Origin: Nitrobacter sp. Nb-311A
GTDB lineage: Bacteria > Pseudomonadota > Alphaproteobacteria > Rhizobiales > Xanthobacteraceae
Direction: 5' to 3'
Assembly (NCBI RefSeq): GCF_000152905.1
Contig: NZ_AAMY01000008.1
Coordinates: 1-64,000 of the forward strand
Length of the DNA stretch: 64,000 nt
Positions 17,357 through 37,213 of this stretch are shown in pieces. The translations under genes and the position numbers were made by a program. How positions within the stretch are numbered: position 1 is the first letter of the stretch; every line of letters begins with the position of its first letter. The notes beneath the pieces were generated by a model. The model saw nothing but the letters and a program-made list of their open reading frames with translations, was not told the origin of the DNA and did no database searches.

Positions 17357-17851
17357 ATGGCGCCGCGCAGACAATCACGTCGCACCGTCGATGCAGCCTC
17401 TCTTGAGATCGAAATCGAGCGTCTCCGTGATCTCGATCTCAAGGCCCTTCGTCTCCGTTGGCAGGGCGTGGCGGGTCGCTCAGCTCCCGTTCACCTGCCC
17501 AAACATCTGTTGTTCGCCATGCTCGCCTATCGCATTCAGGCCGATGCCTTCGGCGACCTCGATGCGGGGATGGTACAGATCTTGAAGACTGTCGTAGGAT
17601 CAGAGGGATCGGCTGCAATCACCAGGCTGACCGACAAGGTCGATCAGCGCAACCAGGAGCTCACGCCGGGCGCCATCCTGACCCGCGAATGGAAGGGCCG
17701 TGACCATCGGGTCATGGTGCTCGCCGATGGCTTTGGGTTTGAGGGCAAAACCTATGACAGCCTGTCCAAGGTCGCCCTTGCCATCACCGGGACCAGATGG
17801 AACGGGCCGAGGTTCTTTGGCCTGCGAGCTGCAACTGCGAAGCCGCAATGA
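17357..17851 (+). CDS. DUF2924 domain protein
   Basis: The protein has 164 residues and matches DUF2924: EIERLRDLDLKALRLRWQ near the N-terminus, LPKHLLFAMLAYRIQADAFG in the middle, then GAILTREWKGRDHRVMVLADGFGFEGKTYDSLSKVA and ITGTRWNGPRFFGL at the end. Members sit directly upstream of serine recombinases and may be accessory factors for recombination. It follows the DUF3489 gene by 3 bp. Its stop overlaps the recombinase start (ATGA), so the three genes form one operon. Confidence 0.9.
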   Translation: MAPRRQSRRTVDAASLEIEIERLRDLDLKALRLRWQGVAGRSAPVHLPKHLLFAMLAYRIQADAFGDLDAGMVQILKTVVGSEGSAAITRLTDKVDQRNQELTPGAILTREWKGRDHRVMVLADGFGFEGKTYDSLSKVALAITGTRWNGPRFFGLRAATAKPQ

Positions 17852-18771
17852 CGTCTGGTAAATCGGTGTCTGGCAAATCCGTCCGGTGTGCGATCTATAC
17901 CCGGGTTTCGACCGATGCCGGGCTCGATCAGGAATTCAACTCGCTCGATGCTCAATACGATGCATCCGAGGCCTATATCCGTAGTCAGACGCATGCGGGC
18001 TGGACGCTGATCAGGGCGCGCTATGACGATGGCGGGTTTTCGGGCGGATCAACCGACCGCCCTGCCCTGCAAAAGCTACTCGACGATGTCCGGGCCCGCA
18101 AAATCAATGTCATCGTTGTCTATAAAGTCGACCGCCTGACACGCTCTCTGGCCGACTTCGCCAAGTTGGTTGAGCTGTTCGATGCTCATAACGTGTCATT
18201 TGTCTCGGTGACCCAGCAGTTCAACACCACAACATCGATGGGCCGTTTGACCCTGAATGTTCTTCTGTCCTTCGCCCAGTTCGAGCGCGAGGTCACTGCC
18301 GAGCGCATCCGCGACAAGATCGCCGCCTCCAAGCGCAAGGGCCTCTGGGTTGGAGGCATTGTGCCGCTCGGTTACGCGCTGAGCGATGGCAAGCTCTCCA
18401 TTCACCCAAACGAGGCAAAAACCGTTCGGCTCATATTCGAGCGCTACCTTGAACTAGGAAGCGTCAATCGCCTGGTCGCCGATCTCAAGAGCAAGGGACT
18501 GACCTCCAAGGTCCGCAAGCTCTCGACCGGTGCCGTCAGGGGCGGCGTTCCCTTCACCCAGGGGCCGCTGTTCTACATGCTGCGCAACCGGTTCTATATC
18601 GGCGAAGTGGCATTCAAGGGTGAGGTGCTGCCCGGGCCGCAACCGCCTTTGCTCGAGCGATCCCTGTTCGAGGCCGTCCAGGCGAAACTGACCGAACAAT
18701 GGTCTCATCGGACCAGAGCCAGGCAAAAATCCAAAGCACTTCTCTCCGGATTGCTGTTCGACGGAACTTAG
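17848..18771 (+). CDS. Large serine recombinase, C-terminally truncated
   Basis: The 307 residues cover the resolvase catalytic domain, with Ser21 in YTRVSTDAGLDQEFNSLDAQ, the conserved GGFSGGSTDRPALQKLL and VVYKVDRLTRSLADFAKLVE, and the start of the recombinase DNA-binding domain (RNRFYIGEVAFKG). The protein ends abruptly at SKALLSGLLFDGT. Relatives continue past this motif with a zinc-ribbon and coiled-coil region of 200 or more residues, which is missing here. After the TAG stop the frame reads only GHRRGYPARS and stops again. The truncation marks the junction with the phage genes that follow, and the enzyme is unlikely to be active. Confidence 0.85.
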   Translation: MTSGKSVSGKSVRCAIYTRVSTDAGLDQEFNSLDAQYDASEAYIRSQTHAGWTLIRARYDDGGFSGGSTDRPALQKLLDDVRARKINVIVVYKVDRLTRSLADFAKLVELFDAHNVSFVSVTQQFNTTTSMGRLTLNVLLSFAQFEREVTAERIRDKIAASKRKGLWVGGIVPLGYALSDGKLSIHPNEAKTVRLIFERYLELGSVNRLVADLKSKGLTSKVRKLSTGAVRGGVPFTQGPLFYMLRNRFYIGEVAFKGEVLPGPQPPLLERSLFEAVQAKLTEQWSHRTRARQKSKALLSGLLFDGT

Positions 18772-21025: not shown

Positions 21026-21232
21026 ATGAGCCGTCGGACATCAATCGTCAATCTCTCACTTGCCGGAGCGCGCGTAACAGCGCCATGCCGCGATGCGATC
21101 TTCGCCGCCGCTGATCGCGTTGGCGTCGGTGTTTCCGAGTTTTGCATCAGAGCCGCTGCCGAGAAGCTGATCGAAGACGGCGCCGAGATTCCCGGGGTGT
21201 TCGAACCCGGCGATGTGGGCGGCATTCGATGA
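21026..21232 (+). CDS. Small ribbon-helix-helix-like phage protein
   Basis: From the ATG at 21026 the protein has 68 residues (MSRRTSIVNLSLAGARVTAP ... EPGDVGGIR). The first strand TSIVNLSLAG and the helices DAIFAAADRVGVGVSEFCIRAAAEKLIEDG suggest a ribbon-helix-helix or similar small DNA-binding fold. ATGs at 21005 and 20924 are also in frame. The stop overlaps the portal start (ATGA). In position it may correspond to the small head-completion genes found before portals in lambdoid phages, but I see no sequence support for that. Confidence 0.45.
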   Translation: MSRRTSIVNLSLAGARVTAPCRDAIFAAADRVGVGVSEFCIRAAAEKLIEDGAEIPGVFEPGDVGGIR

Positions 21233-22605
21233 AGATGCCGCGCCTGATCGCCAGGATCTTTCAGCGCAGTTACGAAGGAGCCGCCGGTGGTCGACGCTGG
21301 CGCGGTCAGCCGGACATGCCGGTCACCTTGGCCGCGATGAATGCGGCACGCGGCCCTCTCGCTCGACGCGCTCGGTATCTCGCCGCCAACAACGCACTAG
21401 CAGCGTCCGGCGTTGAAGCCTGGGTCTCCGCACTGGTCGGCAGCGGAATTAAGCCACAGAGCGGACATGCTGATCCCGCGGTCCGTGGCCGCCTTAATCT
21501 CGCGTTCGAAGCCTGGACCGATGATGCCGACGCCGACGGCCTCACCGATTACTACGGACTGCAAGGCGTCCTTGTTCGCCGCATGGTCGTCGACGGTGAA
21601 TCCTTCGCTCTGAAATTAAACGCCCCCGAGGGCCTGCGGCTTCGCCTGATCGACTCCGATCAGGTCGACGCAAGCTTGAACCGCGAACTGGCGGGCGGTG
21701 CGCGGATCATCCAAGGCGTCGAATTCGATACCAGCGGCCGGCGGGTCGCCTATCACATCCTGCCAGACCGATCGGGAGCCCCATTCGCTCAACTGGCGCT
21801 GACGCCACGTCGCGTTCCGGCGGAAGATGTCGTGCATATGTTCAGGCCGGAAACGCCCGGACAGGTACGCGGCATCAGCTGGTTTGCGCCGGTGTTGCTC
21901 CGCATGGTGGACCTCGATAGTTGGCGCGATGCGCAGCTCGTCAGACAAAAGATCGGGGCTCTGCTCACCGGCTTCATCACCAACGGCGACGGAAGTGGTC
22001 AGCCATTCGAAGGCGAGCAGAACGGATCGAACCTGGTCGGAGGTCTGGAACCTGGCACCCTGAAATTCCTCGATCCGGGCCAGAGCGTGACGTTCAGCAC
22101 GCCGGCCCGCATCGGTACAGAAGTTATTGACTTCGCGAAAATCACCGAACGTGAGATCGCGGTTGGCCTCGGCCTGCCGGCATCGGTACTGACCGGCGAC
22201 CTATCAGACGTGAATTACAGCAGCATCCGCGCTGGCTTGGTCGAGTGGCGTCGTCGCGTCGAAGCCATCCAGCACAATGTCATTGCGTTTCAGGCTCTCC
22301 GCCCAATCTGGCGCCGATGGGCGGCAACCGAAGTCCTGAGCGGTCGCGTGGCGACTACGCTCGATGCCGTGATGCCGGTGAAATTCATCACTCCGAAACA
22401 GCAATGGGTGGATCCGTGGAAAGACGTCCAGGCCGAGCTTGATGCCATCGCCGGCGGCCTGATGTCCCGACGCGAGGCAGTCACCTCCCGCGGGGTCGAC
22501 ATCGAGGCGCTCGACGCTGAAGTTGCCGCCGACAATGCCAGGGCCGATGCGCTCGGCTTGACCTTCACCGCACCGACGAAGCCTCAAACAGTGGTGGCCG
22601 CATGA
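21229..22605 (+). CDS. Phage portal protein, lambda gpB family
   Basis: The protein has 458 residues and forms the dodecameric ring at one capsid vertex through which DNA passes. The family pattern is clear: SGVEAWVSALVGSGIKPQS, LVRRMVVDGESFAL, RLIDSDQVD, RRVAYHILPDRSG, AEDVVHMFRPETPGQVRGIS and ITEREIAVGLGLPASVLTGD then NYSSIRAGLVEWRR. The ATG at 21229 overlaps the preceding stop and matches the family start. Longer upstream frames are shadows. Size is slightly shorter than lambda gpB. Four-base overlaps link it to its neighbours. Confidence 0.93.
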   Translation: MKMPRLIARIFQRSYEGAAGGRRWRGQPDMPVTLAAMNAARGPLARRARYLAANNALAASGVEAWVSALVGSGIKPQSGHADPAVRGRLNLAFEAWTDDADADGLTDYYGLQGVLVRRMVVDGESFALKLNAPEGLRLRLIDSDQVDASLNRELAGGARIIQGVEFDTSGRRVAYHILPDRSGAPFAQLALTPRRVPAEDVVHMFRPETPGQVRGISWFAPVLLRMVDLDSWRDAQLVRQKIGALLTGFITNGDGSGQPFEGEQNGSNLVGGLEPGTLKFLDPGQSVTFSTPARIGTEVIDFAKITEREIAVGLGLPASVLTGDLSDVNYSSIRAGLVEWRRRVEAIQHNVIAFQALRPIWRRWAATEVLSGRVATTLDAVMPVKFITPKQQWVDPWKDVQAELDAIAGGLMSRREAVTSRGVDIEALDAEVAADNARADALGLTFTAPTKPQTVVAA

Positions 22606-24419
22606 CGGAAATTCTCACCCGCGAAGCGCCGGTCAAGGCATCGAGCTGGAACGCCGAGCAGCGCACGTTCGACGTCGTGCTCTCGGTCGGCGTCGCGGTG
22701 GAGCGTCACGACTTCTCCGGTCCGTACGACGAGATCCTGGACTTGCGCGGCGCAACGGCGCCTTCGCTCTTGCCCCTGCTCGACAGCCACAACCGGTCCG
22801 GTCTGGAAGGCCGGCTCGGCGAGGTCAGCAATGTCCGCCTCGAGCGAGGCAAGTTGATCGGCACGGCGCGGCTCTCGGCTCATTCTCCAATGGCACAGCG
22901 CATCGCCGCAGAGCTTGGCGACGGAACGAAATACGGCGTCTCGATCGGCTACAGCGTGTCGGCCTGGGCCGAGCAAATGAACCCCACCACCAAACGGCGC
23001 GAGAAGCGGGCGACGGCCTTCAACGTGCTCGAAGCTTCACTCGTCGCCGTGCCGGCCGATCAGGCCGCTACAACTCGGAGTCTTCCAATGCCTGAAGCGA
23101 ACGCAAAAACCGAACCCACGCCGGCGGCGGCCACTGTACCGGCCACGACGGAGCCCACCACCATGACGCGCGCTGCCATTAACGTCGAGATCCGCAGCAT
23201 CGCTCGCACCGCGGGATTGGATCAGGCATGGATCGATCGGCAGATCGACGCCGACGCCAGTCTCGATCAAGTCCGCGCCGCCGCGTTGTCGGCGATGTCG
23301 GAGCGATCGTCCGCAGCGGCTTCAATCCGCAACACGGGCGCCGTCATCATCAACGATCACACCGATCCGGTGGCGATCCGCTCGGCTATGGCCGACGCTC
23401 TGGCTCACCGTATCGCACCGGCCGCCTGTAAGCTGGAAGGTCGATCGGTGGAGTTCCGCGGTCACCGTGTGCTGGATATGGTCGGTGACTTGGCCGCCGC
23501 TGCCGGCGAGCGCATCAACCTTCGCGACCAGGACGCGCTCCTGCAGCGAGCGGTCGGCGCTCATTCGACCAGCGACTTCCCGCTGTTGCTCGCCGATGCT
23601 GCGAACAAGGCGCTGCTCGCCAACTACCAGGTTGCGGCGCCGACCTATAGAAAGTGGGCGGCTCGCAAGCCGTTCTCCGACTTCCGCGATCACAGCTTCC
23701 TGCGCGTCGGCGATTTCCCGTCCTTCAAGGAGATCAACGAGGGCGGCGAGGTCAAGTACGGCACGATCAGCGAGAACGCGGAGAAGGTTCGGGCGAAGGA
23801 GTATGGTACCGGAATCGCCATCGGCCGCCGCGCGCTGATTAACGACGACCTTTCCGCGCTGTCGGACTTCTCAAGCATGATCGCCACCCGAGCGGCGGCT
23901 GACGAGAACGCTAAGGCCTACGCGGTCCTCGCGACCAACGCGGCGCTGTCGGACACGAAGGCGCTCTTCCATACCGATCACGCCAACCTCGCCAGCTCGC
24001 CTTCGACGATCGATACGACGAACGTCGCACTGGCGGTGGCGCAGCTTCGGGCACAGACAAGCCTCGATGGCCTGAAGCTCAATTTGCAACCTACCTATCT
24101 CATTTGCGGGCCGGCAAAGGAAGTCGCCGCCCGTCAGCTTCTCGCCGCGATCGTGGCCGCCAAGGCGTCGGATGTAAACGTTTGGTCAGGCTTCGCCGAG
24201 TTGGTGGTCGACGCGAACATCACCGGGAATGAGTGGTACATCTTCTCCGCTCCCGGTGTCGCGCCGACCGTCATCTACGGCTATGTCGCAGGCTCTGAAG
24301 GTCCGCAGGTCCGCACCGAACGTGACTTCGACACTCAGGCGATCAAGGTGGCCGCGTCGCTCGACTTCGCAGTCGGTGCGATTGACTTCCGCGGCGCCGT
24401 GAAAAACGCTGGCGCATAG
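22602..24419 (+). CDS. Fused prohead protease and major capsid protein
   Basis: The protein has 605 residues. Residues 1-160 are an HK97-type prohead protease: LLDSHNRSGLEGRLGEV with the His of the catalytic site, LGDGTKYGVSIGYSV with the probable Ser, and FNVLEASLVAVPADQAA. A linker rich in Ala, Pro, Thr and Glu (about 163-195) follows, with MTRAAINVEIRSI just after it. The major capsid fold begins around residue 260 and contains FLRVGDFPSFKEINEGGEVK, ALINDDLSALSDFSSMIATR and YLICGPAKEVAARQLLAAI. The protease presumably cuts itself and the scaffold-like linker away. Fused versions are known in alphaproteobacterial phages. The start overlaps the portal stop by ATGA. Confidence 0.88.
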   Translation: MTEILTREAPVKASSWNAEQRTFDVVLSVGVAVERHDFSGPYDEILDLRGATAPSLLPLLDSHNRSGLEGRLGEVSNVRLERGKLIGTARLSAHSPMAQRIAAELGDGTKYGVSIGYSVSAWAEQMNPTTKRREKRATAFNVLEASLVAVPADQAATTRSLPMPEANAKTEPTPAAATVPATTEPTTMTRAAINVEIRSIARTAGLDQAWIDRQIDADASLDQVRAAALSAMSERSSAAASIRNTGAVIINDHTDPVAIRSAMADALAHRIAPAACKLEGRSVEFRGHRVLDMVGDLAAAAGERINLRDQDALLQRAVGAHSTSDFPLLLADAANKALLANYQVAAPTYRKWAARKPFSDFRDHSFLRVGDFPSFKEINEGGEVKYGTISENAEKVRAKEYGTGIAIGRRALINDDLSALSDFSSMIATRAAADENAKAYAVLATNAALSDTKALFHTDHANLASSPSTIDTTNVALAVAQLRAQTSLDGLKLNLQPTYLICGPAKEVAARQLLAAIVAAKASDVNVWSGFAELVVDANITGNEWYIFSAPGVAPTVIYGYVAGSEGPQVRTERDFDTQAIKVAASLDFAVGAIDFRGAVKNAGA

Positions 24420-25461: not shown

Positions 25462-25601
25462 GAGACATCTTCGACGCCGCTGACATTCTCGTTTTCGATC
25501 TCGGTTTCGATCCGTTCTCCGTGCAGGGGATGACCGTCACCGAAATCTTCAACTGGCTTGATCGCGCGATTGCGTTCAGGAAAAGGAAGTCCGCCAAGTG
25601 A
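25446..25601 (+). CDS. Frameshift extension of the tail chaperone (gpE'-like)
   Basis: After the -1 shift the ribosome reads about 51 more residues, QGGGVGDIFDAADILVFDLG through GMTVTEIFNWLDRAI to a TGA at 25599-25601. The pattern of a short aromatic core, then MTVTEIFNWLDRAI, resembles the small P2 gpE' tail. It has no start codon of its own, so it should exist only as part of the fusion. The tape-measure GTG at 25598 overlaps its end, giving translational coupling. Confidence 0.8.
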   Translation, partial: QGGGVGDIFDAADILVFDLGFDPFSVQGMTVTEIFNWLDRAIAFRKRKSAK

Positions 25602-27517
25602 CCAGAGTGATCGAGGCAAAGGCCGTCATCACCGCCAAGGACGCGACGGGCGGAGTCTTCGATCATGTCGCGCGACGGCTTCGCAATCTGATGCATACGG
25701 CCGAAACGGCCAACCGCAGAGTGAACAGTGCGGCCATGCGCGCAGGTGGTGCAGGCAGAGCCGCGGCCGGTGTAGTAGGCGCGCGTGGGATGTCACGCCG
25801 CGAAGGCGGTGTATTCCCGCCGATCATCCCGCCGATTGGACTCGGTGTGCTTGGCCCCGCAGCGGCGGCCTATGGCGGCGTTCAGGCGGTCAAACGCTAT
25901 GCCGACACCGACCTCGCGCTCACCCGCATCGGCATCACCGCGGACGCCACGAAAGAACAGATCGACGGCCTCAATAAGTCGGTCCGTGACCTGGCTTATG
26001 GCAGCGGCAAGTCCTTCGACGAAGTAACGAAGGGTCTCGAAAGCCTGGTCGCCGGCGGCCTCGATCTCGACAAAGCGATGCCGGCGCTACCTGCCATCGC
26101 CAAGACGGCTCAGGCGGCCGGCGCCGAAGTTCAAGACATGGCGACCACAACGCTGGCACTCAATCAGTCTCTCGGCATCTCGACCACCAAGATGCAATCC
26201 GCCTTCGACGTCTTGGTCACGTCAGGCAAGGCCGGAAAGTTCGAGCTGAAGGACATGGCCAGGTATATGGCCTCGATCGCACCGGCAGCGGCAGCGATCG
26301 GCCTCAAGGGCGAGGAAGGTTTGAAGCGCATTGTCGCGGTGCTGCAGACCATTCGCGCCGGTACCGGCTCAACGGAAGAAGCCGCGTCGTCCGTCCAGAA
26401 CATCTTCGCCAAGATGGAGAGCGAGGAGACATCCAAGCGGTTCAAGAAGTTCGGTATCGACCTGCGCAAGGAGATGAAGGAGGCGCGTAAAGAAGGCAAA
26501 GACCTGCTGACCGTGTTTACCGAGCTGACCGAGAAAGCCACGAAGGGCGATCTGTCCAAGATCCCGCAGCTGTTCAGCGACATGGAGTTCGCTCGTGGCA
26601 TGCGGGCGCTTCTGACCTTCAAGGACGTTTTCCAGGACGTGATGAATCGCGTCTCACACTCGGCCGGATCGGCGATGAAGGACTTTGACAAGGTCATGGA
26701 GCGCCCCCAGGCCGCGATCAACCGAATGGCCGAGAGCTTCGACCGGTTGAAAGAAAGCATCGGCAAGGCAATGGCTGCTGCCGGCGCCGCGAAGGCGATG
26801 GACTGGTTTTCCAGCAAACTTGAGGAAGGCGCTCGAATTAAAAGCCTGCCGGCGGCTGAGCGTGCGCAGTTTGAAGCCGATAAGCGCAAGCGCCAAATCA
26901 TCGATCCGCAGATCCGCGAGCTGGACGATAAAATCAGGCAAAAGGAAGAGGCGGAGCGCAAAAAGACGGAGCCATCATGGTGGGAGAGGATGCGAGGCAA
27001 AAAGAAGCTCGATCCCCTTGAGGACCGTCTGCGCAACGACCCTCAGCTTCAAGAATGGCGGATGAAGCGGTTCAACCTCGATGCCGGCCGCGTCGCTCTG
27101 CATGGCGGGGAGATGCCGCCCATCTTTACCGACGACGAAGTCAAGAAGATGCGGGAGGCCGAGGCCGAGAAGGCCCGCGCCGCCGACAACGCGAAGCCTG
27201 AGCCGCTGCCGTCCGGCACTTCACGCATGATCCCCAGACCAGACCTGCGCGAACGGCCGAAGCGGCTGGAATTGCCGCCCGTGCAGGGCCTCGATGCCGG
27301 TCCTAGCAAGGTCGACGTTCAGGGAACGGTAGACGGCGAATTGAATGCCAAAATCACGATCGAGGACGGCACGGGGCTGCTGAAGATGAAAAGCGACCTT
27401 GAACGGGTCGTGAAGGTCGTCGGCTCGCTTCAAGGCGCCAGCAATGGACCTGGCTCTGCAGGTCACTCCTCCCCTGACGCGGGTGCGGCTTCGGCAGGAT
27501 CGGCAGGTGCGCAATGA
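25598..27517 (+). CDS. Phage tail tape measure protein, TP901 family
   Basis: The protein has 639 residues and sets tail length while being spooled inside the tail tube. The TP901 core lies near residues 100-330 (DTDLALTRIGITADATKEQI, SFDEVTKGLESLVAGGLDLD, ATTTLALNQSLGIS, IAPAAAAIGLKGEEGLKRI). The N-terminus has a Gly/Ala-rich hydrophobic patch (IPPIGLGVLGPAAAAYGGV), and residues 430-520 are highly charged. It is short for a tape measure, which implies a short tail or a deletion. The start is GTG at 25598, overlapping the chaperone extension; the stop overlaps the next gene by ATGA. Confidence 0.88.
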   Translation: MTRVIEAKAVITAKDATGGVFDHVARRLRNLMHTAETANRRVNSAAMRAGGAGRAAAGVVGARGMSRREGGVFPPIIPPIGLGVLGPAAAAYGGVQAVKRYADTDLALTRIGITADATKEQIDGLNKSVRDLAYGSGKSFDEVTKGLESLVAGGLDLDKAMPALPAIAKTAQAAGAEVQDMATTTLALNQSLGISTTKMQSAFDVLVTSGKAGKFELKDMARYMASIAPAAAAIGLKGEEGLKRIVAVLQTIRAGTGSTEEAASSVQNIFAKMESEETSKRFKKFGIDLRKEMKEARKEGKDLLTVFTELTEKATKGDLSKIPQLFSDMEFARGMRALLTFKDVFQDVMNRVSHSAGSAMKDFDKVMERPQAAINRMAESFDRLKESIGKAMAAAGAAKAMDWFSSKLEEGARIKSLPAAERAQFEADKRKRQIIDPQIRELDDKIRQKEEAERKKTEPSWWERMRGKKKLDPLEDRLRNDPQLQEWRMKRFNLDAGRVALHGGEMPPIFTDDEVKKMREAEAEKARAADNAKPEPLPSGTSRMIPRPDLRERPKRLELPPVQGLDAGPSKVDVQGTVDGELNAKITIEDGTGLLKMKSDLERVVKVVGSLQGASNGPGSAGHSSPDAGAASAGSAGAQ

Positions 27518-28515: not shown

Positions 28516-28971
28516 ATGGACAACGTGGTGACCGCGAAGCAATTGGCCGATCTGATCGGCATCACCACGGAGCACGTCCGGCGGCATCAGCAGGCTGGCG
28601 TCGTCTTCAAGACGGGGCGCGACAAGTATCTCCTCCGTGAGAGCATCCGTGGCTATTGCGAGCATTTGCGGGGCGTGGCCTCAGGCCGGGGTGGTGATTC
28701 TGCGGTTGCGACCTTGACCGCAGAGCGGGCAAGGCAGGCCCGGGAGCATGCCGACAACACCGCGCTGAAGAACGCCGCTCTCAGGAAGGAGCTTGTCCCA
28801 GCCACCGACGTCGTCCGAGGCTGGGCAGATATCCTAACCAAAGTGCGAGCGGCCTTGTTGGCGGTGCCTTCGAGGGTGTGGCAGCAGGCGCCGCACCTCA
28901 CCGCCGAAGACAAAAATATAATCGACGCTGAACTGCGGCTCGCCCTGGCTGCCCTGGGAGAGGGCGAATGA
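28516..28971 (+). CDS. Terminase small subunit, Nu1-like
   Basis: The protein has 151 residues. The N-terminal winged helix is typical of Nu1/gpNu1: VTAKQLADLIGITTEHVRRH followed by the wing QAGVVFKTGRDKYLL. A long charged helix (LTAERARQAREHADNTALKN) and a C-terminal segment for contact with the large subunit follow. The protein recognises the packaging site and recruits the large subunit. Its stop overlaps the large-subunit start by ATGA. Confidence 0.85.
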   Translation: MDNVVTAKQLADLIGITTEHVRRHQQAGVVFKTGRDKYLLRESIRGYCEHLRGVASGRGGDSAVATLTAERARQAREHADNTALKNAALRKELVPATDVVRGWADILTKVRAALLAVPSRVWQQAPHLTAEDKNIIDAELRLALAALGEGE

Positions 28972-30746
28972 GCGAGCGTCTGACACGCGCGGCGCTGCGA
29001 TCGCTGATCCCGCCGCCCCGGCTACAGCTTTCCGAGTGGATCGAGCGAGAGATTTGCCTGCCAGACGATGTGTCGGCGCTTCCGGGACCTATTCGGCTCT
29101 ACCCGTTCCAGCGTGGCATTGCCGACGCCATCAGCGACCCTGCGGTCGAGAGAATCACCGTCGTGAAGTCGGCGCGCATTGGCTACACCACGCTGCTGAT
29201 CGGAACGCTTGCCGCTCACGTGGTCAACGAGCCGGCCGCGGTGCTGTTTGTTCTGCCGACCGCCGATGACTGCCGCAACTTCATGGTCAGCAACGTCGAG
29301 CCGACGTTTGAGGCTTCACCCTCCCTTGCCGGCAAGCTGTCAGGCGACCAGCCCGGCAAGAATGACAGAAATACCATGCTCTCGCGCCGCTTCCTGGGCG
29401 GCTCGCTCAAGATCGTGGCGGCGAAGGCACCTCGTAACCTTCGGGCCCACACCGCTCGCGTGCTGATCGTCGACGAAGCCGATGCCATGGAGGTTACGGC
29501 CGAGGGCTCGCCGATCATGCTGGCTGAGAAACGGACGCTCTCGTTTCCGGATCGGAAGATCATCGTCGGCTCGACGCCGGTGTTCGAGGATACCTCTCAC
29601 GTCCTGCGCTCCTATGCCCGTTCGGATCAGCGGATCTTCGAGGTTTGCTGTCCGGAGTGCTCAGGCTTTCACGAGGTCGCATGGAAGGACATCCAGTGGC
29701 CGGAAGGTGAACCGGACAAGGCGGCCTGGTGCTGCCCGGGCTGTGGTGTGGTGATCGAGGAACGGCATAAGCCAGCGATGGTCACGGCGGGCCGGTGGCG
29801 CGCCACCGCTCCCGAGGTGAAGGGGCACGCAGGTTTTCGGATTAACGCACTGGTGAGCCCGCTGGCGAACGCGTCGTGGCGAAAACTGGCAGCCGAATTC
29901 CTGCAGAGCAAAGACGACCCCGCGACACTGCAGACGTTCGTCAACACGATCCTGGCCGAGGGGTGGCGCGAGGCCGGCGAAGAGCTGGACGACAGCGCCC
30001 TTGCAGAGCGCGCTGAGAACTTCTCCCTCAATGACCTGCCCATGAACGTGCTGATGATCACGGCAGGCGTCGACGTGCAGCGCGACCGACTGGAGATCAC
30101 CTTCATCGGCTGGGACAGCGGCGGGGCCGCGTACGTCCTGGGCCATCGCATCATCTGGGGACTGCCGACGGACGATCTGACCTGGCGCGATCTGGACGAT
30201 CTGCTGAAGGAGCGCTTCCGCCATCCTTTCGGAGGATCGCTCGGCATCGAAGCTGCGGCCATCGATAGCGGCGACGGCGAGACGATGGAGCGCGTGTATC
30301 GCTTCTGCTTCCCCCGCGCACGCCGTCGGATCATGGCCATCAAGGGCGTCGCCGGGAATCGGCCGTGGATCGAGAGATCGAAGCAGAAGATCCAGGGCGG
30401 ATGGCTGTGGATCGTCGGCATCGATGGAATCAAGTCACATCTGATCGCGCGGCTATCCCGCAGCGGGAACGTCCGGTTCTCGAACAGCTTGTCGGCCGCT
30501 TGGTATGAGCAGCTGGCCTCCGAGCGTGTGGTGGTGCGCTACAATCGGGGCCAACCCATGCGCCGGTTCGAACGGATCCCCGGCCGCCAGGCGGAAGCCC
30601 TCGACACCGTCGTCTACGCCATCGCCGCCCGGCAGCAGGTCAACGTCAACTGGTCCGCGCGCGAAGAGCAGCTTCGCAATCCCATCGTAGCCGAGCAAGT
30701 CGCGCAAAGACCGCGCGTTGTGCAGTCAGACTGGATGGCCCGCTGA
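28968..30746 (+). CDS. Terminase large subunit, GpA family
   Basis: The packaging motor and nuclease has 592 residues, slightly short of lambda gpA. The ATPase domain has a deviant P-loop (VVKSARIGYTT, about 65-75) and Walker B LIVDEADAM (about 165-173). A zinc-binding insertion is present (CCPECSGF ... CCPGCGVV, near 222-262). The nuclease half begins around ITAGVDVQRDRLEITFIGWD with the catalytic Asp. It lies downstream of the tail genes, which is unusual. The stop overlaps the next start (TGATG). Confidence 0.92.
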   Translation: MSERLTRAALRSLIPPPRLQLSEWIEREICLPDDVSALPGPIRLYPFQRGIADAISDPAVERITVVKSARIGYTTLLIGTLAAHVVNEPAAVLFVLPTADDCRNFMVSNVEPTFEASPSLAGKLSGDQPGKNDRNTMLSRRFLGGSLKIVAAKAPRNLRAHTARVLIVDEADAMEVTAEGSPIMLAEKRTLSFPDRKIIVGSTPVFEDTSHVLRSYARSDQRIFEVCCPECSGFHEVAWKDIQWPEGEPDKAAWCCPGCGVVIEERHKPAMVTAGRWRATAPEVKGHAGFRINALVSPLANASWRKLAAEFLQSKDDPATLQTFVNTILAEGWREAGEELDDSALAERAENFSLNDLPMNVLMITAGVDVQRDRLEITFIGWDSGGAAYVLGHRIIWGLPTDDLTWRDLDDLLKERFRHPFGGSLGIEAAAIDSGDGETMERVYRFCFPRARRRIMAIKGVAGNRPWIERSKQKIQGGWLWIVGIDGIKSHLIARLSRSGNVRFSNSLSAAWYEQLASERVVVRYNRGQPMRRFERIPGRQAEALDTVVYAIAARQQVNVNWSAREEQLRNPIVAEQVAQRPRVVQSDWMAR

Positions 30747-31742: not shown

Positions 31743-32121
31743 TCTTGCTGCTATGCTCTCGGACACCGTGAACGACTGCTTCGGCGAGACGTTTCGGTTC
31801 GAGGCGTTCAAGCCCGTCGATGACGTCGACCTGCCGACGGTTGCGGATGCTACCCGGCCAACGTTCGAGGCCGTCGGCATCTGGGCTGATCAGTCATCCT
31901 CCGAGCTGCCGCATGCCAGAATGGGGCCGGATCGTCGCGCACACGGATGGACTGCCGGGCACCCGACGGTGCTGATGGCAGACGCAAGGATGCCATGGCG
32001 TCCCCGAGCAGGCGATCAGATCACGCGGCTCGCAGACGGCACCGTCTACCGGATCAGTAAGCCGCCTCGGCCTGATGGGATGGGCCACACCACGATTCCG
32101 CTCACGGATAGGAAGCGGTGA
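31723..32121 (+). CDS. Phage head-tail joining or completion protein (FII-like)
   Basis: The protein has 132 residues. It has the layout of small head-tail attachment proteins: a helical start (PFDDLAAMLSDTVNDCFGE), then strands VGIWADQSSSELPHARMG, RPRAGDQITRLADGTVYRIS and a C-terminal VTIPL-type end (HTTIPLTDRKR). The segment RAGDQITRLADGTVYRI is the most characteristic. The identification is by pattern. It is the last gene of the rightward structural run; a terminator follows. Confidence 0.6.
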   Translation: MTTPFDDLAAMLSDTVNDCFGETFRFEAFKPVDDVDLPTVADATRPTFEAVGIWADQSSSELPHARMGPDRRAHGWTAGHPTVLMADARMPWRPRAGDQITRLADGTVYRISKPPRPDGMGHTTIPLTDRKR

Positions 32122-32143
32122 CGACTAAGCCGGTGGACGCCCG

Positions 32144-32434
32144 CTAGGCGTCCACCAAAGCCACCCGCTCGAGGCGGGTTTTAATCATCTGGTTGATTTG
32201 TCGAGTTGAGTCAGTAACCCGTATCTGCGCCTTGATGGCCGCGAGCGAAAACTCTTTGAGCAAAGGCACAAATGACGCGTTGACGAACGACGAAGTCGCG
32301 GTCTGAACCTTACTGAACGACACAACGAAGGGTTCTCCGGCCGCCATGGCTGATCGAAGGTGAGGCAACACGTTGGCCCCTTGGTCGGCGGTATTTGCAC
32401 CGGCCACGAGATCGTGAATCTGAATTGTTACCAT
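32144..32434 (-). CDS. STAS-like DUF4325 protein
   Basis: The protein has 96 residues, resembling the DUF4325 STAS-like group: IHDLVAGANTADQGANVLPH, then a strand PFVVSFSKVQTATSSFVNAS ending in the SSFVNA turn expected near an STAS-type strand-helix junction, and FVPLLKEFSLAAIKAQIRV. STAS proteins of the anti-anti-sigma type bind GHKL anti-sigma kinases. This gene directly follows and overlaps (7 bp) a GHKL-STAS gene, so a partner-switch pair is likely. It lies in reverse orientation in a prophage and is therefore probably accessory cargo. Confidence 0.7.
   Translation of the reverse strand: MVTIQIHDLVAGANTADQGANVLPHLRSAMAAGEPFVVSFSKVQTATSSFVNASFVPLLKEFSLAAIKAQIRVTDSTRQINQMIKTRLERVALVDA
32163..32182 (+). 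terminator. Terminator of the rightward phage structural operon
   Basis: The stem ACCCGC/GCGGGT with loop TCGAG is followed by TTT. It lies inside the 3' end of the convergent STAS-like gene. A second, longer stem, GGTGGACGCC/GGCGTCCACC at 32132-32156, overlaps that gene's stop codon but has no T run on the plus strand. Confidence 0.65.
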
Positions 32435-33333
32435 TCCAGCTCCTCTCTCTCTTCCGGAAGTTCCTCGATTAGATCCGTACGAAGGTTAATATCTATGGTC
32501 GTTCCCGGACTAAAACCTGCAGTTTTAAGGGCCCGATGTTCAATTTTACCTGATCCGTTACGGTAGAACGTCACCATCGCATAACCGGTGTATATAGTCA
32601 CCTGTCCGGCATTGGTTCCAATGACAACTTTTAGCAGTAGATCAAGGCCCAATCCCGCATTCCCGGGGATGGATTTGGTAGTGAATCCTTCCTGAACGGC
32701 CAAAAGGACGGTATCAGGGTCAGGAAGCCCTGGCCGCACTTCTCGGACCTTGGCGGGGATACCCAACCCAAAATCCGCCAACGAAATGTTGATCCGATCC
32801 TGCCTGGGATAGTGCTGCACGAAGATGCTGCCGATATCCAACCGGGTGTGTTCCCGAATGTTGTTGAACAGCTCGGATAGACATGTTTTGAGATCATAAA
32901 ACGAGGCTTGTGTCTTCCCGACTCTACTTGAGAGCCACGGCAGGAATGTGTGCTCCAACCAGTCGTGGCTTTGATTGGGGGCAATACGCTGCAACGGAAT
33001 GGTCGTCTCTCGCGGGCACGAATTTTCCCGAACTTTGGCGCCGCAGTGTTGTTCGAAAAAGCGGGAGTCGTCGAGATACCGCAGGGCCCCTACGTTTTTG
33101 TCGATGCTCGTCAGGCGCACAACGGTTCCATTTTGATGAAGCCACCAAATTAGGTTGCTGAGAAAAACCACTCCTGCCGGCTGAATGAAGTTTAGCCTCT
33201 GAAAATCCAGGACGAGATTTGAGGGAAGCCCGCTTGGGCAGCCCGAGGCAATCGACTCGGCTAAAGTAGAAAGAGTAGCGCCTTCAAATTTTGTAGGGAT
33301 GAAAAAGCTCGGTACTGTCGCAGAATCATTCAT
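32428..33333 (-). CDS. STAS-GHKL ATPase protein, cargo gene in the prophage
   Basis: The protein has 301 residues. The N-terminal part (about 10-110) looks like a degenerate STAS domain (LVLDFQRLNFIQPAGVVFLS, then LTSIDKNVGALRYLDDSRFF). The C-terminal half is a GHKL ATPase: N box LSELFNNIREHT, G1 box LADFGLGIP, and G2 box NAGLGLDLLL. The arrangement recalls anti-sigma kinase and antagonist proteins (SpoIIAB/SpoIIAA) joined in one chain. With the DUF4325 gene it forms a two-gene operon. I know of no defined function; a phage-exclusion or host-control module is an inference. Confidence 0.7.
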   Translation of the reverse strand: MNDSATVPSFFIPTKFEGATLSTLAESIASGCPSGLPSNLVLDFQRLNFIQPAGVVFLSNLIWWLHQNGTVVRLTSIDKNVGALRYLDDSRFFEQHCGAKVRENSCPRETTIPLQRIAPNQSHDWLEHTFLPWLSSRVGKTQASFYDLKTCLSELFNNIREHTRLDIGSIFVQHYPRQDRINISLADFGLGIPAKVREVRPGLPDPDTVLLAVQEGFTTKSIPGNAGLGLDLLLKVVIGTNAGQVTIYTGYAMVTFYRNGSGKIEHRALKTAGFSPGTTIDINLRTDLIEELPEEREELEW

Positions 33334-33677
33334 CCGGCGACTTTACGGCAAGAGGTTCATTTGACGAAAGATCCCGAAAGCTACCGCTCCGCCTCAACCC
33401 GCTCCGGCGGGTTTTTATTGGAAGGTCGCAAAAAGGCCCGCCGGAGTTGGAGGCCACAGCGGGCCAATTCGGGTCCGGGATCGATGGGTGCGGAGCTCCC
33501 GTCCGGTGAATCAATGCCGCACGCGGGAGAGCGTTCCTCAATCCTTCAATAGTGAGACGTTTGGGCGCCGGGGTTTTGAACCCCTAGTTGCGATTATTTT
33601 TTTTGTGCGGAAAGTTGGGAAATCCCATGTTAGCGGGAAAATCGGAGCGTCTTCAGCTCTGTGCAGGCGCGAGCCAT
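33334..33677. other. Intergenic stretch with a plus-strand terminator-like hairpin
   Basis: An ACCCGC/GCGGGT hairpin followed by TTTTATT lies at about 33399-33420 on the plus strand, although no plus-strand gene ends nearby. A T-arm-like hairpin with GGGGTTTTGAACCCC lies at about 33574-33588. No credible gene is visible. Confidence 0.45.
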
Positions 33678-33992
33678 TCACCCGCCCAAGTCATTCCACT
33701 GTGAGATGTCTGCCGGTAAAATCTCCGAGGCTTTGAAGCCGAGCTCTTTGTCGTAAGAGCCGCTATAGAGGTTTGAAGCATCACTGGAGATGAACCCGCC
33801 TCCGTATCCGAGGGGCCTATCGTTGAAGAGTACTTCGGTAGTAGGAGGCTGCCCTGGCGTGCACGGGCGGATTGTAAACGTGCCGCGCGATGTCCAGTGC
33901 GTAATCTTCGGCGCTGGATCATCGCCATTCCAGTACCAAAACTGCTTGGCTTTCCGCTCTAGGTCCGCACTTGAAAGTCCCGGCGTGTTCAT
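33678..33992 (-). CDS. Hypothetical phage early protein
   Basis: The protein has 104 residues, with a helical start (MNTPGLSSADLERKAKQFWY) and a beta-rich remainder (RGTFTIRPCTPGQPPTTEVL; GGGFISSDASNLYSGSYDKE). No known domain is recognised. It follows the Arc-like gene by 23 bp in the same orientation, so it is probably transcribed with it from the operator region. Confidence 0.5.
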   Translation of the reverse strand: MNTPGLSSADLERKAKQFWYWNGDDPAPKITHWTSRGTFTIRPCTPGQPPTTEVLFNDRPLGYGGGFISSDASNLYSGSYDKELGFKASEILPADISQWNDLGG

Positions 33993-34015: not shown

Positions 34016-34399
34016 TCATTTGTCGAAGGGCGGTGACCGCTTGATGGCATAGCCTTTACTGGAAAGATAATCGCGCATTATAAAATCGACCGCCTCGGCT
34101 CGAAAATGCATCTTGTTTCCAGCTTTCGCCTGATCCGCCATGAACTGTTCGAGATCGAATTCTCGTATGTTGTAAAAGACGCTTTCTAGGGCTTCAGTCG
34201 TGGCCTGCATACGCGTTGCGAGCGCCTGAATGCCCAGGGCGTTCAACACTTCTTCGAAGGTATACTCGAGCCTCGCGACAATCTCAGCGTTCAGTGATCG
34301 CCCGTTCTGTTCCGCCTCAGCCTTCAGAGCATCGCGCATCCCTTCCGGAAAGCGGACAATATACTGATCCAACTTTCGGCTCTTTGACTTCTGGGCCAT
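34016..34399 (-). CDS. Arc-family ribbon-helix-helix repressor-like protein (leftward)
   Basis: The protein has 127 residues. The first 50 match Arc/MetJ-type DNA-binding domains: KLDQYIVRFPEGMRDALKAE followed by AEQNGRSLNAEIVARLEYTF, with the strand QYIVRFP and the conserved NGRSLNAEI. A C-terminal helical domain (about 60-127) may mediate oligomerisation. The ATG at 34399 is chosen because AGGAG lies six bases upstream; an upstream in-frame start at 34429 would fall in the operator region. It faces a second Arc-like gene across three palindromic operators. Confidence 0.85.
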   Translation of the reverse strand: MAQKSKSRKLDQYIVRFPEGMRDALKAEAEQNGRSLNAEIVARLEYTFEEVLNALGIQALATRMQATTEALESVFYNIREFDLEQFMADQAKAGNKMHFRAEAVDFIMRDYLSSKGYAIKRSPPFDK

Positions 34400-34421
34400 C
34401 CGGATTCTCCTGACTGGAGTA

Positions 34422-34500
34422 TATCGCACTAGGCGATAAAGTCCCTTGACTCAATTATCGCACTAGGCGATAAGGTTAATCGTTATCGCATTAGGCGATA
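34422..34500. promoter_or_regulatory. Triple operator of the phage control region
   Basis: Three copies of a 17-bp inverted repeat, TATCGCACTAGGCGATA, lie at 34422-34438, 34456-34472 and 34484-34500; the last has one T for C change. The outer arms TATCGC/GCGATA are identical in all three. The starts are 34 and 28 bp apart. They overlap promoter elements in both directions: a rightward TTGACT (34446-34451) with GATAAG 17 bp downstream, and a leftward TATACT in the first copy. This is the layout of a lysis-lysogeny switch. Confidence 0.85.
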
Positions 34501-35656: not shown

Positions 35657-36101
35657 TCCCGGCCACGCAACGTTAGACGGGTTTCCGGGCAACCCGTCTA
35701 ACGCGCTCGCTCGATACGATGAGCTGATGACGGAGGCGGAAGTCTGCCGCCGCTACGCCCATCTGGTAAGCGAGAAGGAGTTGCGGTGCGCGAGGCAGCG
35801 CGGAGAGATTCCCTTCTACAGCGGCAAGCGCGGGATGGTGCTGTATCACCCCGACGCCATCGCCAGCTATCTGCAACGAAAGGAAAGCCCGTGTCGTCGA
35901 GAATGTGGGAGTACGGCGGCTACTGGATCGGATCTGCGAACAACACCTCAAAGCTCTACGCCTATTGGTATGACAAGCGAACAGGCGCAACTCGTCGCCG
36001 AACGCTTGGGACAGAAATACTCTCCGAAGCGCAAGAAAAGCTCATCGAGCTTGTCGGAGAATCTCGGCTCGACGGAAGCAAATCTCCGAGTAGTGTCATG
36101 A
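35634..36101 (+). CDS. Excisionase-like DNA-binding protein
   Basis: The frame has 155 codons. Residues about 31-82 (LMTEAEVCRRYAHLVSEKEL, then ARQRGEIPFYSGKRGMVLYH and PDAIASYLQR) have the Xis/AlpA-type winged-helix pattern: a recognition helix, a wing with basic residues, and the closing DAIASYL helix. The C-terminal 65 residues (CRRECGSTAATGSDLRTTPQ) overlap the integrase gene in another frame and are of low complexity. The functional unit is probably the first 90 residues. Overlap of xis with int is common. Confidence 0.65.
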   Translation: MSSMRAHNPGHATLDGFPGNPSNALARYDELMTEAEVCRRYAHLVSEKELRCARQRGEIPFYSGKRGMVLYHPDAIASYLQRKESPCRRECGSTAATGSDLRTTPQSSTPIGMTSEQAQLVAERLGQKYSPKRKKSSSSLSENLGSTEANLRVVS

Positions 36102-37114
36102 TCCGCGTTGCGCTGGACCACTACTACGAGAACGACGCCAAGAATAAGCCGTCCGCAGATCAGGCTTTCAGAGCCATTGTCTTGGTCAACGAATATCTGT
36201 CGGAGAAGATCGTGCCGATGGCTGCGGTGTCGGCATTCGGGCCGCTGAGGCAGAAAGAGTTTATGCTGTGGTGTGCGTCGAAGCACAGCCATACAGCCGG
36301 CACCATCGCGCGCAATCTCGCCGTCGTGTCTGCAGCCTTCCGGTTCGGTCGACGTCTGTCCGTCGTAAGGGATGGCTTCGGCAACGAGCATGAAATCCAA
36401 CTTCTCGAGTCTGCTCCCGACATCGTCACCCAGCCCAAGCGCGTGGCCGAGCTTACATCGCTGGCACCATCGGCGCCGCGCGACTGGCTTCCCAGCTTCC
36501 AGCAACTCGGGCAATTCATCGATGCGATCGACAGGCGGCAAGAAAACCTCTTCCGCTTCGTGATCTTGGCGCTGAACACCTGGGCGCGACCGGAGGCTGT
36601 TTTAGATTTCCGACCTTCCGTGCAGGTCAATCGAGAGTTCGGGACGCTGAACCTCAACCCGCCGGGTCGCAGGCAGACCAAGAAATATCGCCCCACGATT
36701 CGGCTCACAGACAATCTGACCGGCTGGCTGGATGAGTGGGGCGAAGGTGCGCCGATGATTTGGGACGGCAAGCCGGTCACGACCATGAAGCGGACCTTCA
36801 AACGACTGGCCGTCGACTGCGGGATGGATCGCTTCACGCAAGACACCCTCCGCCACTTCATGGCGACGTACGTTCGCAGGTCAAAAAACCCGCCAGTGTC
36901 ACAAGAACAGCGAGATATGTGGCTCGGTCACGACGAGAGCCGGACGGCCAATTGGTACGAGCACAATGACCCGGACTACCTGTCCGAGGCCATGCAAGCC
37001 ACCGACAATATCATCCGGGACCTGCAGGCGTACTGCTCCCGTTCTCTGTTTTCGTGCAAGGGACGTGCAAAAGCGCCGCTCCGCGCAATCAAAGGAGGTC
37101 GCGATGTCGCATAA
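35891..37114 (+). CDS. int: Tyrosine-family phage integrase
   Basis: The protein has 407 residues from the GTG at 35891 (SSRMWEYGGYWIGSANNT). The N-terminal arm-type DNA-binding part (YAYWYDKRTGATRRRTLGTE) precedes the core. The catalytic set is visible: Arg in NTWARPEAVLDF, the box with RHFMATYVRR and the later GHDESRTANWYEH with the nucleophilic Tyr. The in-frame ATG at 35786 lies within the xis gene and is less likely. It ends 25 bp from the tRNA-Val CCA end, which identifies its target site. Confidence 0.9.
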   Translation: MSSRMWEYGGYWIGSANNTSKLYAYWYDKRTGATRRRTLGTEILSEAQEKLIELVGESRLDGSKSPSSVMIRVALDHYYENDAKNKPSADQAFRAIVLVNEYLSEKIVPMAAVSAFGPLRQKEFMLWCASKHSHTAGTIARNLAVVSAAFRFGRRLSVVRDGFGNEHEIQLLESAPDIVTQPKRVAELTSLAPSAPRDWLPSFQQLGQFIDAIDRRQENLFRFVILALNTWARPEAVLDFRPSVQVNREFGTLNLNPPGRRQTKKYRPTIRLTDNLTGWLDEWGEGAPMIWDGKPVTTMKRTFKRLAVDCGMDRFTQDTLRHFMATYVRRSKNPPVSQEQRDMWLGHDESRTANWYEHNDPDYLSEAMQATDNIIRDLQAYCSRSLFSCKGRAKAPLRAIKGGRDVA

Positions 37115-37138: not shown

Positions 37139-37213
37139 TGGTGGGCGCGACAGGGATCGAACCTGTGACCCCTACCATGTCAAGGTAGTGCTCTCCCGCT
37201 GAGCTACGCGCCC
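37139..37213 (-). tRNA. tRNA-Val (anticodon GAC), attachment site of the element
   Basis: The minus strand begins GGGCGCGTAGCTCAGCGGGA. It has a D arm, an anticodon stem CTACC/GGTAG around TTGACAT (anticodon GAC), and a T arm with TTCGATC. It ends in the acceptor strand CGCGCCC, discriminator A and encoded CCA (37139-37141). All stems pair. The integrase gene lies next to its 3' end, so the tRNA 3' half is the likely integration site and has been kept intact. Confidence 0.97.

Follow-up and report, generated by a model that had tools for sequence, protein, structure and literature searches.

Two overlapping minus-strand genes in a prophage in the window (here, the whole 64,000-nucleotide stretch of Nitrobacter sp. 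Nb-311A DNA that was analysed) encode a STAS plus GHKL protein (K) and a DUF4325/STAS protein (S), and we give an even chance to the reading that this pair is a moron that works in trans and belongs to a branch of ssDNA-triggered kinase-substrate switches lacking an effector. K (301 aa; 32428-33333, minus strand) appears from the ORF list, Pfam, PHROG and a structure model to be a serine/threonine kinase similar to SpoIIAB and VapK, and S (96 aa; 32144-32434, minus strand) is a predicted VapS-like phospho-acceptor according to Pfam, a profile match to PDB 9z7o and its own model. The stop codon of K and the start codon of S overlap by 7 bp (ATGGTAA, 32428-32434, minus strand), and both ORFs are exactly as described in an earlier note on this DNA, which had proposed a two-gene STAS-GHKL/DUF4325 operon. 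In Pfam, S passes the gathering cut-off for DUF4325 (PF14213; 35.9 bits, cut-off 23), while the matches of K to HATPase_c (E 8.9e-5) and STAS (E 1.7e-3) both lie under Pfam's own cut-offs. The PHROG collection (v4) places K in phrog_3364 (E 3.1e-38) and S in phrog_9989 (E 2.6e-15), two families of unknown function that already hold relatives of K and S; the matches are near full-length, and the families were matched separately, the scan tying neither to the other. Considering that homologues are found in the same order, with similar sizes and mostly overlapping, across phyla, both are real genes. The GC content of the pair is about 52-53%, compared with 60.6% for the window.

Late genes to the left of the pair are all on the plus strand, namely portal (21142-22605), major head protein (22602-24419), tape measure (25598-27517) and terminase large subunit (28968-30746), and behind S come phage genes in convergent orientation. 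The right end of the prophage is marked by a tyrosine integrase (35786-37114, plus strand; phrog_1, E 7.8e-23) that adjoins tRNA-Val (37139-37213, minus strand). Two further leftward ORFs lie upstream of K: a possible neighbour of 104 aa (33678-33992, minus strand), which has the weakest coding signal of the set compared and matches nothing in Pfam up to E 1, and an Arc-like ribbon-helix-helix repressor (34016-34429, minus strand; Pfam Arc, E 5.8e-14). The pair had been described as reversed relative to the flanking phage genes, and it does run against the late genes and the integrase; however, because these two leftward ORFs precede K, it may end a leftward cluster rather than form a lone reversed cassette. 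A 10-bp perfect inverted repeat, given without a strand, lies over the 3' end of S (32132-32156) and forms a hairpin; minus-strand RNA of positions 32110-32170 folds at -36.3 kcal/mol (z -4.55). The hairpin by which the pair was said to be closed is thus real, but its role as the pair's own terminator is unproven because it is without a U-tract and the terminator scan of the pair's region gave no canonical intrinsic terminator on the minus strand. Two intrinsic-terminator-like hairpins were found in the region compared with 3.2 expected in shuffles, and a good rightward one is located in the gap upstream of K (33396-33413, plus strand). The prophage region also has a serine-recombinase-type integrase at its left (17797-18771, plus strand) in addition to the tyrosine integrase at its right. 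No lysis or baseplate genes were found among ten prophage proteins scanned, and, in a search for the left attachment site, no 14-base piece of the sequence around the tRNA recurred as an exact direct repeat. It is possible that this region consists of two elements or is a reduced prophage.

The AlphaFold2 model of K, built with 62 sequences, has a pLDDT of 93.9, and its best Foldseek match is SpoIIAB bound to sigma-F (1l0o; E 7.5e-6, TM 0.71 on the target). When the K family profile was compared with solved structures, the best match was CheA (E 1e-5), with SpoIIAB at just E 0.018; the single sequence of K gave matches at chance level alone, including RsbW (E 0.37). The N-box of GHKL proteins serves the ATP/Mg site. 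In K, the N-box residue Asn158 (ELFNNIREH; codon 32860-32862, minus strand) is a predicted part of this site, and E154, N158, H162, D187, G191, N225, G227 and G229 are identical in 62/62 aligned K sequences. Position 49 is Phe in 54, Tyr in 2 and Trp in 1 of these 62 sequences (57/62 aromatic), and Phe49 of K (codon 33187-33189, minus strand), a candidate ssDNA-stacking aromatic, aligns with W53 of a PIN-linked K from Deinococcus (L008). Through this alignment, and hence indirectly, Phe49 would be the counterpart of VapK F54, and it is a proposed equivalent of CapK W68. The protein starts with its STAS domain, and no HTH was found on it in Pfam at E up to 1. PADLOC assigned neither protein to a clear family; part of its DrmA profile was hit by K at 1.5e-4 and by relatives of K at 5.8e-7 to 4.9e-10. 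A fused K-S protein (L122:439-1806) matches positions 85-386 of the 1750 in the same profile at E 1.1e-25, a hint that some proteins behind the DISARM DrmA profile may carry a K-S-like module.

The AlphaFold2 model of S has a pLDDT of 96.5, and Foldseek retrieved nothing significant for it from the PDB, the best match being the STAS protein TM1442 (E 0.83). The single sequence of S had no match among solved structures; a profile of 27 S relatives matches Escherichia VapS (PDB 9z7o) at E 4.8e-12. In the alignment to VapS, Ser48 of S (codon 32291-32293, minus strand) falls on VapS Ser48 and is therefore the predicted phospho-acceptor. Among 64 orphan-type S proteins (those of pairs without a linked effector), position 48 is occupied by Ser 55 times, by Thr 8 times and by Pro once. 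These proteins also have a motif in the C-terminal helix, with I80 in 54/64 and R87 in 53/64, that is absent from VapS and PIN-linked S and is largely missing in six Bacteroidota members; we propose that it may form a surface for a partner. The tail past R87 has 7-21 residues (median 11) in 61 orphan S and 28 in the PIN-linked S of L008.

Physical interaction between K and S is supported by the presence of both GHKL and DUF4325 domains within one polypeptide. Among the 53 DUF4325 loci examined (L122-L174), there are single ORFs with GHKL and a C-terminal DUF4325, of which 11 have 399-523 aa (L122, L124, L129, L136-L138, L143, L158, L160, L166 and L168) and 9 have 334-355 aa (L123, L126, L128, L135, L148, L150, L151, L159 and L162); the fusions fall in at least two clades. 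K is probably the kinase of S, with both the kinase activity and the ssDNA trigger being predicted by analogy with described relatives.

The SpoIIAB-like fold of the K model raises the possibility of a classical partner switch, in which K would be an anti-sigma factor that sequesters a sigma factor of the host or the phage, with S as its anti-anti-sigma factor, so that transcription of the lysogen is reprogrammed. Such a switch, whose support comes from this modelled resemblance to sigma-F-bound SpoIIAB, would also be compatible with S being a STAS protein like SpoIIAA and RsbV, and with the missing linked effector, as its target must then be in trans. Nevertheless, we consider it possible but unlikely. 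As the earlier note had stated, there is no sigma factor or phosphatase among the annotated neighbours (part of the window ORFs were scanned), and the best solved match of the S profile is VapS, which is an antitoxin and not an antagonist of an anti-sigma factor. Moreover, CapK and VapK have an N-terminal STAS domain, which K shares and which SpoIIAB and RsbW do not have.

Scans for the pair covered viral contigs, annotated phages and plasmids, and genomes, and a pair was counted when a K of at least 250 aa occurred with S (loci up to L121; cut, broken and S-less loci were dropped). They yielded 100 loci with K and S, representing 67 distinct pairs at 90% end-anchored identity. Sixty-four of them were kept as orphan-type, after L007 (whose K joins the fused clade), L008 (PIN-linked) and L013 (in the membrane-linked clade) had been set aside. 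According to the record titles, carriers of K-S include Streptococcus, Bacillus, Gracilibacillus, Rhodopseudomonas, Methylobacterium, Ruegeria, Desulfonema, Massilia and Hymenobacter, among others. S directly follows K in 41/44 genome loci; of the three exceptions, two (L105 and L109) have only a broken K frame and one (L107) reaches the contig end. With start codons picked by script, the K/S overlap is exactly 7 bp in 38/67 distinct pairs and 10 bp in 11/67. A K relative with no recognised S beside it was observed in a Nostoc plasmid (L009). Near the host taxon, K matches were found in 2/101 genomes (the host and one with a two-piece remnant) and DUF4325 in 9/298 genomes (host included), a sporadic distribution typical of mobile cargo. 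In Bradyrhizobium plasmids (H20-H25 and H29-H32) and in relatives of the host (L002/L003 and L015), K is found as short or two-frame remnants, as expected of cargo that comes and goes.

The moron-like position suggested for the window pair is supported by isolate proviruses. Among 24 hand-picked contigs of at least 15 kb, one per near-identical group, the pair is located within 3 kb of an end in 10/15 distinct isolate proviruses (2.52 expected, P 3.5e-5) and in 3/9 metagenome contigs (2.04 expected, P 0.33), where isolate or metagenome status is presumed from what we take the contig number to mean. This count includes L031, L058 and L074 (K or S only, or broken) and omits L033 (presumably a near-copy of L031) and L057 (a copy of L055). 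Among 49 nearest-neighbour proteins, nearly all of which come from viral loci, integrases (7/49 for each of the two top families) and endolysins are the commonest among the first 25 of 86 families; the pair of Streptococcus phages is flanked by the lysin on one side and by the integrase or paratox end on the other. The 77 neighbouring proteins at genome loci (first 25 of 66 families) include integrases, amidases and a terminase, as well as housekeeping proteins (secA, mfd, uvrB, ubiD and others) and restriction proteins (HsdR, Eco57I and ResIII). The housekeeping and restriction neighbours in several genomes indicate a portable cassette rather than a phage-only gene pair. Thus, with regard to its occurrence in other prophages, which the earlier note had raised, the pair is indeed present in temperate phages of several phyla, but it is also chromosomal and extends beyond prophages. 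K-S of two Streptococcus chromosomes lies close behind ResIII and Eco57I-methylase genes (L110:1527-6819) and behind a PLD-SNF2 helicase gene (L111:2169-6798), arrangements that are perhaps defence operons.

These neighbours also bear on the idea that the pair is a sensor for induction, which would relay ssDNA to the repressor of the prophage (the adjoining Arc-like regulators) and thereby set the choice between lysis and lysogeny. The window pair, ending a leftward cluster that starts with the Arc-like repressor, fits this idea. However, the closest neighbours at several genome loci are the housekeeping genes mentioned above, and no regulator recurs among the nearest-neighbour families considered at viral or genome loci, which makes such a sensor quite unlikely.

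We then considered whether an effector accompanies the pair. Counting ORFs of at least 90 aa, the first one past S lies on the opposite strand in 39/61 orphan loci; in 5/61 it shares the strand of S and is no more than 60 bp away. Ten of the 17 same-strand ORFs within 150 bp behind S were scanned, among which there was no PIN domain (PF01850) and no family that occurred twice; one of these followers is DUF188 (YaiI/YqxD). A small hydrophobic toxin ORF was found behind S in 0/64 loci in a first scan, and a wider recheck (59 loci with the full 500 nt) gave 8 hydrophobic ORFs among 206 small ORFs, in 6/64 loci; one of the 8 has a ribosome-binding-like motif and none are alike. These results agree with the earlier view of a switch with no output beside it: binding or phosphorylation is predicted, and no linked effector was found. 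The host genome contains three PIN-domain places on other contigs, and a search of it for a VapC acting in trans, made without a positive control, gave no match to the VapC of L156, which is of VapKSC type.

The last result also concerns a counter-defence decoy, in which S or K of the prophage would disturb VapKSC-like systems of the host and spare induction or infection from host toxins. A VapS-like S without the VapC-blocking tail could compete for VapK, and phages may be expected to profit from blocking damage-triggered abortive systems. On the other hand, the active site of K is complete, the VapC search above found no such target, and the host genome lists a single DUF4325 place, that of the window. 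Likewise, among seven genomes with an orphan S (G000, G119, G142, G575, G658, G708 and G909), a second DUF4325 place is present in G575 only. We thus regard a decoy as very unlikely.

Phylogenetic analysis of the kinase was carried out for 84 K sequences, comprising 41 of the 68 orphan rows (4 of them from the DUF4325-locus scans, 3 of which are identical to others) and 43 other sequences. In this quick tree, which has long branches and an arbitrary root, the orphan type needs 2 changes compared with 28.4 in shuffles, and the orphan K are grouped apart. One clade unites the four PIN-linked K (support 98; linkage taken from the annotation for L008 and from reading the sequence for L153, L154 and L156), and a second unites the 15 membrane-linked K with L013 (support 96). 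It looks as if the effector-less condition is, under this arbitrary root, an old and kept state, which argues that K and S are functionally complete and act in trans. A set of three genes was also observed at L125, L127, L130-L134, L145, L149, L152, L155, L164, L165, L167, L169 and L171, consisting of a GHKL protein (mostly 317-390 aa; that of L164 is unrecognised by the K profile), a DUF4325 protein (about 105-148 aa) and a protein of 140-219 aa. The third protein has a 19-residue stretch of mean hydropathy of at least 1.6 in 12/16 cases and of 1.3 in 3, with none in L165; the proteins of L130 had no PADLOC match. Such a set resembles a KS switch whose effector is a membrane protein.

An alternative explanation for a pair without an effector is decay of a VapKSC system that lost the VapC toxin and the VapS tail and now has no function or just that of an antitoxin. 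The homology of K and S is the same as that of VapKSC, no PIN gene is present, S stops at residue 96, within the stretch (residues 94-116) that VapS requires (as given in the available part of its description), and K frames are broken or split in L002/L003, L015, L058, L105 and L109. However, the K motifs (62/62) and the S acceptor (Ser or Thr in 63/64) are kept across phyla, which argues against decay, and, within the limits of the quick, arbitrarily rooted tree, orphan K are grouped rather than scattered as tips in the PIN clade. Decay is therefore very improbable, and an intact effector-less switch remains the reading that we prefer.

A further feature of orphan K is an acidic C-terminal tip with a terminal aromatic residue (e.g., EEEEFEW). 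In the window it comprises residues 295-301, EREELEW (32428-32451 with the stop codon, minus strand), and is modelled with low confidence. When the overlap is at least 7 bp, 45/54 K end in F, W or Y; in 54/64 K the tip is partly forced, since the K reading frame runs through the ribosome-binding site of S (e.g., GAGGAG) and its start ATGG. Among the 10 pairs whose genes overlap less or not at all, the last 12 residues of K still have a mean charge of -4.3 (background +0.37 in 530 ORFs), and K ends in F or W in 6/10 compared with 32/530 in the background, with a P of 8e-6 that is generous because 6/10 are related Bacteroidota and the background has unverified ORFs. F or W is the last residue of 4/4 PIN-linked K, whose mean charge is just -1.25, and of 0/15 membrane-linked K. 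The tail of SSB, DDDIPF, is similarly acidic with a terminal aromatic, and the accessible part of one report describes it as able to bind and regulate SSB's own ssDNA-binding fold (PMC8509808). By this likeness, we tentatively propose that the K tip might sit in the cleft where K would bind ssDNA, from which ssDNA would then displace it.

Taken together, the effector-less switch would work as follows. As a GHKL serine/threonine kinase akin to VapK, CapK and SpoIIAB, K would act on its STAS substrate S; while the lysogen rests, K would be inactive and S would carry no phosphate. Upon DNA damage or infection, ssDNA would bind the STAS-GHKL cleft of K, possibly displacing its acidic-aromatic tip, and the activated K would phosphorylate S on Ser48, whereupon S would release, or gain, a partner. 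By analogy with the described systems, we judge ssDNA or DNA damage as the trigger to be about as plausible as some other signal. In this mechanism K and S are the whole cassette. As no effector is encoded with the pair, the partner would be a protein encoded elsewhere, in the host or the phage, and output through such a trans partner seems rather probable. The phage would carry the pair as a moron, most plausibly to the benefit of the lysogen through an abortive or anti-phage or a damage response; this benefit is possible, at somewhat less than an even chance, and a role as a phage-exclusion module is a candidate suggested by analogy. The role of the tip, the partner and the benefit are all put forward tentatively. 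In the strongest form of the proposal, temperate phages of several phyla would share a complete effector-less switch in which ssDNA activates a tip-inhibited K and the S helix grips a conserved host component, two genes alone turning ssDNA into changed host physiology; we consider this form rather doubtful.

As far as the consulted parts of their description go, CapKS and VapKSC have made ssDNA sensing by GHKL kinases an immunity theme, each with an attached output. A widespread branch that is kept by selection without linked output would imply either that the target is elsewhere or that the kinase-substrate pair acts alone. The present analysis offers a testable function for phrog_3364 and phrog_9989, and the SSB-like tip of K provides a concrete idea of autoinhibition.

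The pair was suggested to be undescribed, and this holds in part: a 2026 report describes the homologous CapKS and VapKSC as immune controllers that respond to DNA damage (PMC13373217, Chambers et al. 2026; here and below, as stated in the part of the article available), but the orphan pair is neither of these systems, and no paper on an orphan K-S pair was found in the open-access literature. DUF4325 also figures in PMC5982333, in the portion of that text at hand. A similar arrangement may be that of Francisella phage KIRK, where the accessible text lists a 293-aa protein (Fhv_0046) followed by a 112-aa DUF4325 protein (Fhv_0047) between repressor and integrase (PMC7924643); it is likened to our pair by description and not by sequence, and it differs in that a 125-aa TM-marked protein follows (PMC7924643). 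VapKSC comprises a STAS-GHKL kinase, a STAS antitoxin and a PIN toxin and is anti-phage; VapS residues 94-116 are needed to block VapC, and VapK was not testable in vitro by its authors (PMC13373217). The window pair resembles it in having a STAS-GHKL kinase without HTH and a STAS partner with a conserved Ser/Thr48. It is unlike VapKSC in that no VapC/PIN gene adjoins it, S does not have the VapC-blocking tail, orphan S has its own C-terminal helix motif and orphan K falls outside the PIN clade. In CapKS, an HTH-STAS-GHKL kinase is activated by ssDNA and phosphorylates a STAS-wHTH repressor (PMC13373217). The STAS-GHKL kinase, the STAS partner with a phosphorylated serine (predicted in S) and the phage-defence context are alike; in contrast, K has no HTH, S is a single STAS domain without a winged helix, and the pair has convergent phage genes behind S instead of lying upstream of an immune operon. 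With SpoIIAB/SpoIIAA and RsbW/RsbV, the pair shares the GHKL serine-kinase fold and a STAS partner with the equivalent serine, and it differs from them in the extra N-terminal STAS domain of K and in having no sigma factor or PP2C phosphatase among its annotated neighbours. Overall, the homology to CapKS and VapKSC points to a damage-activated kinase rather than to a sigma-factor partner switch.
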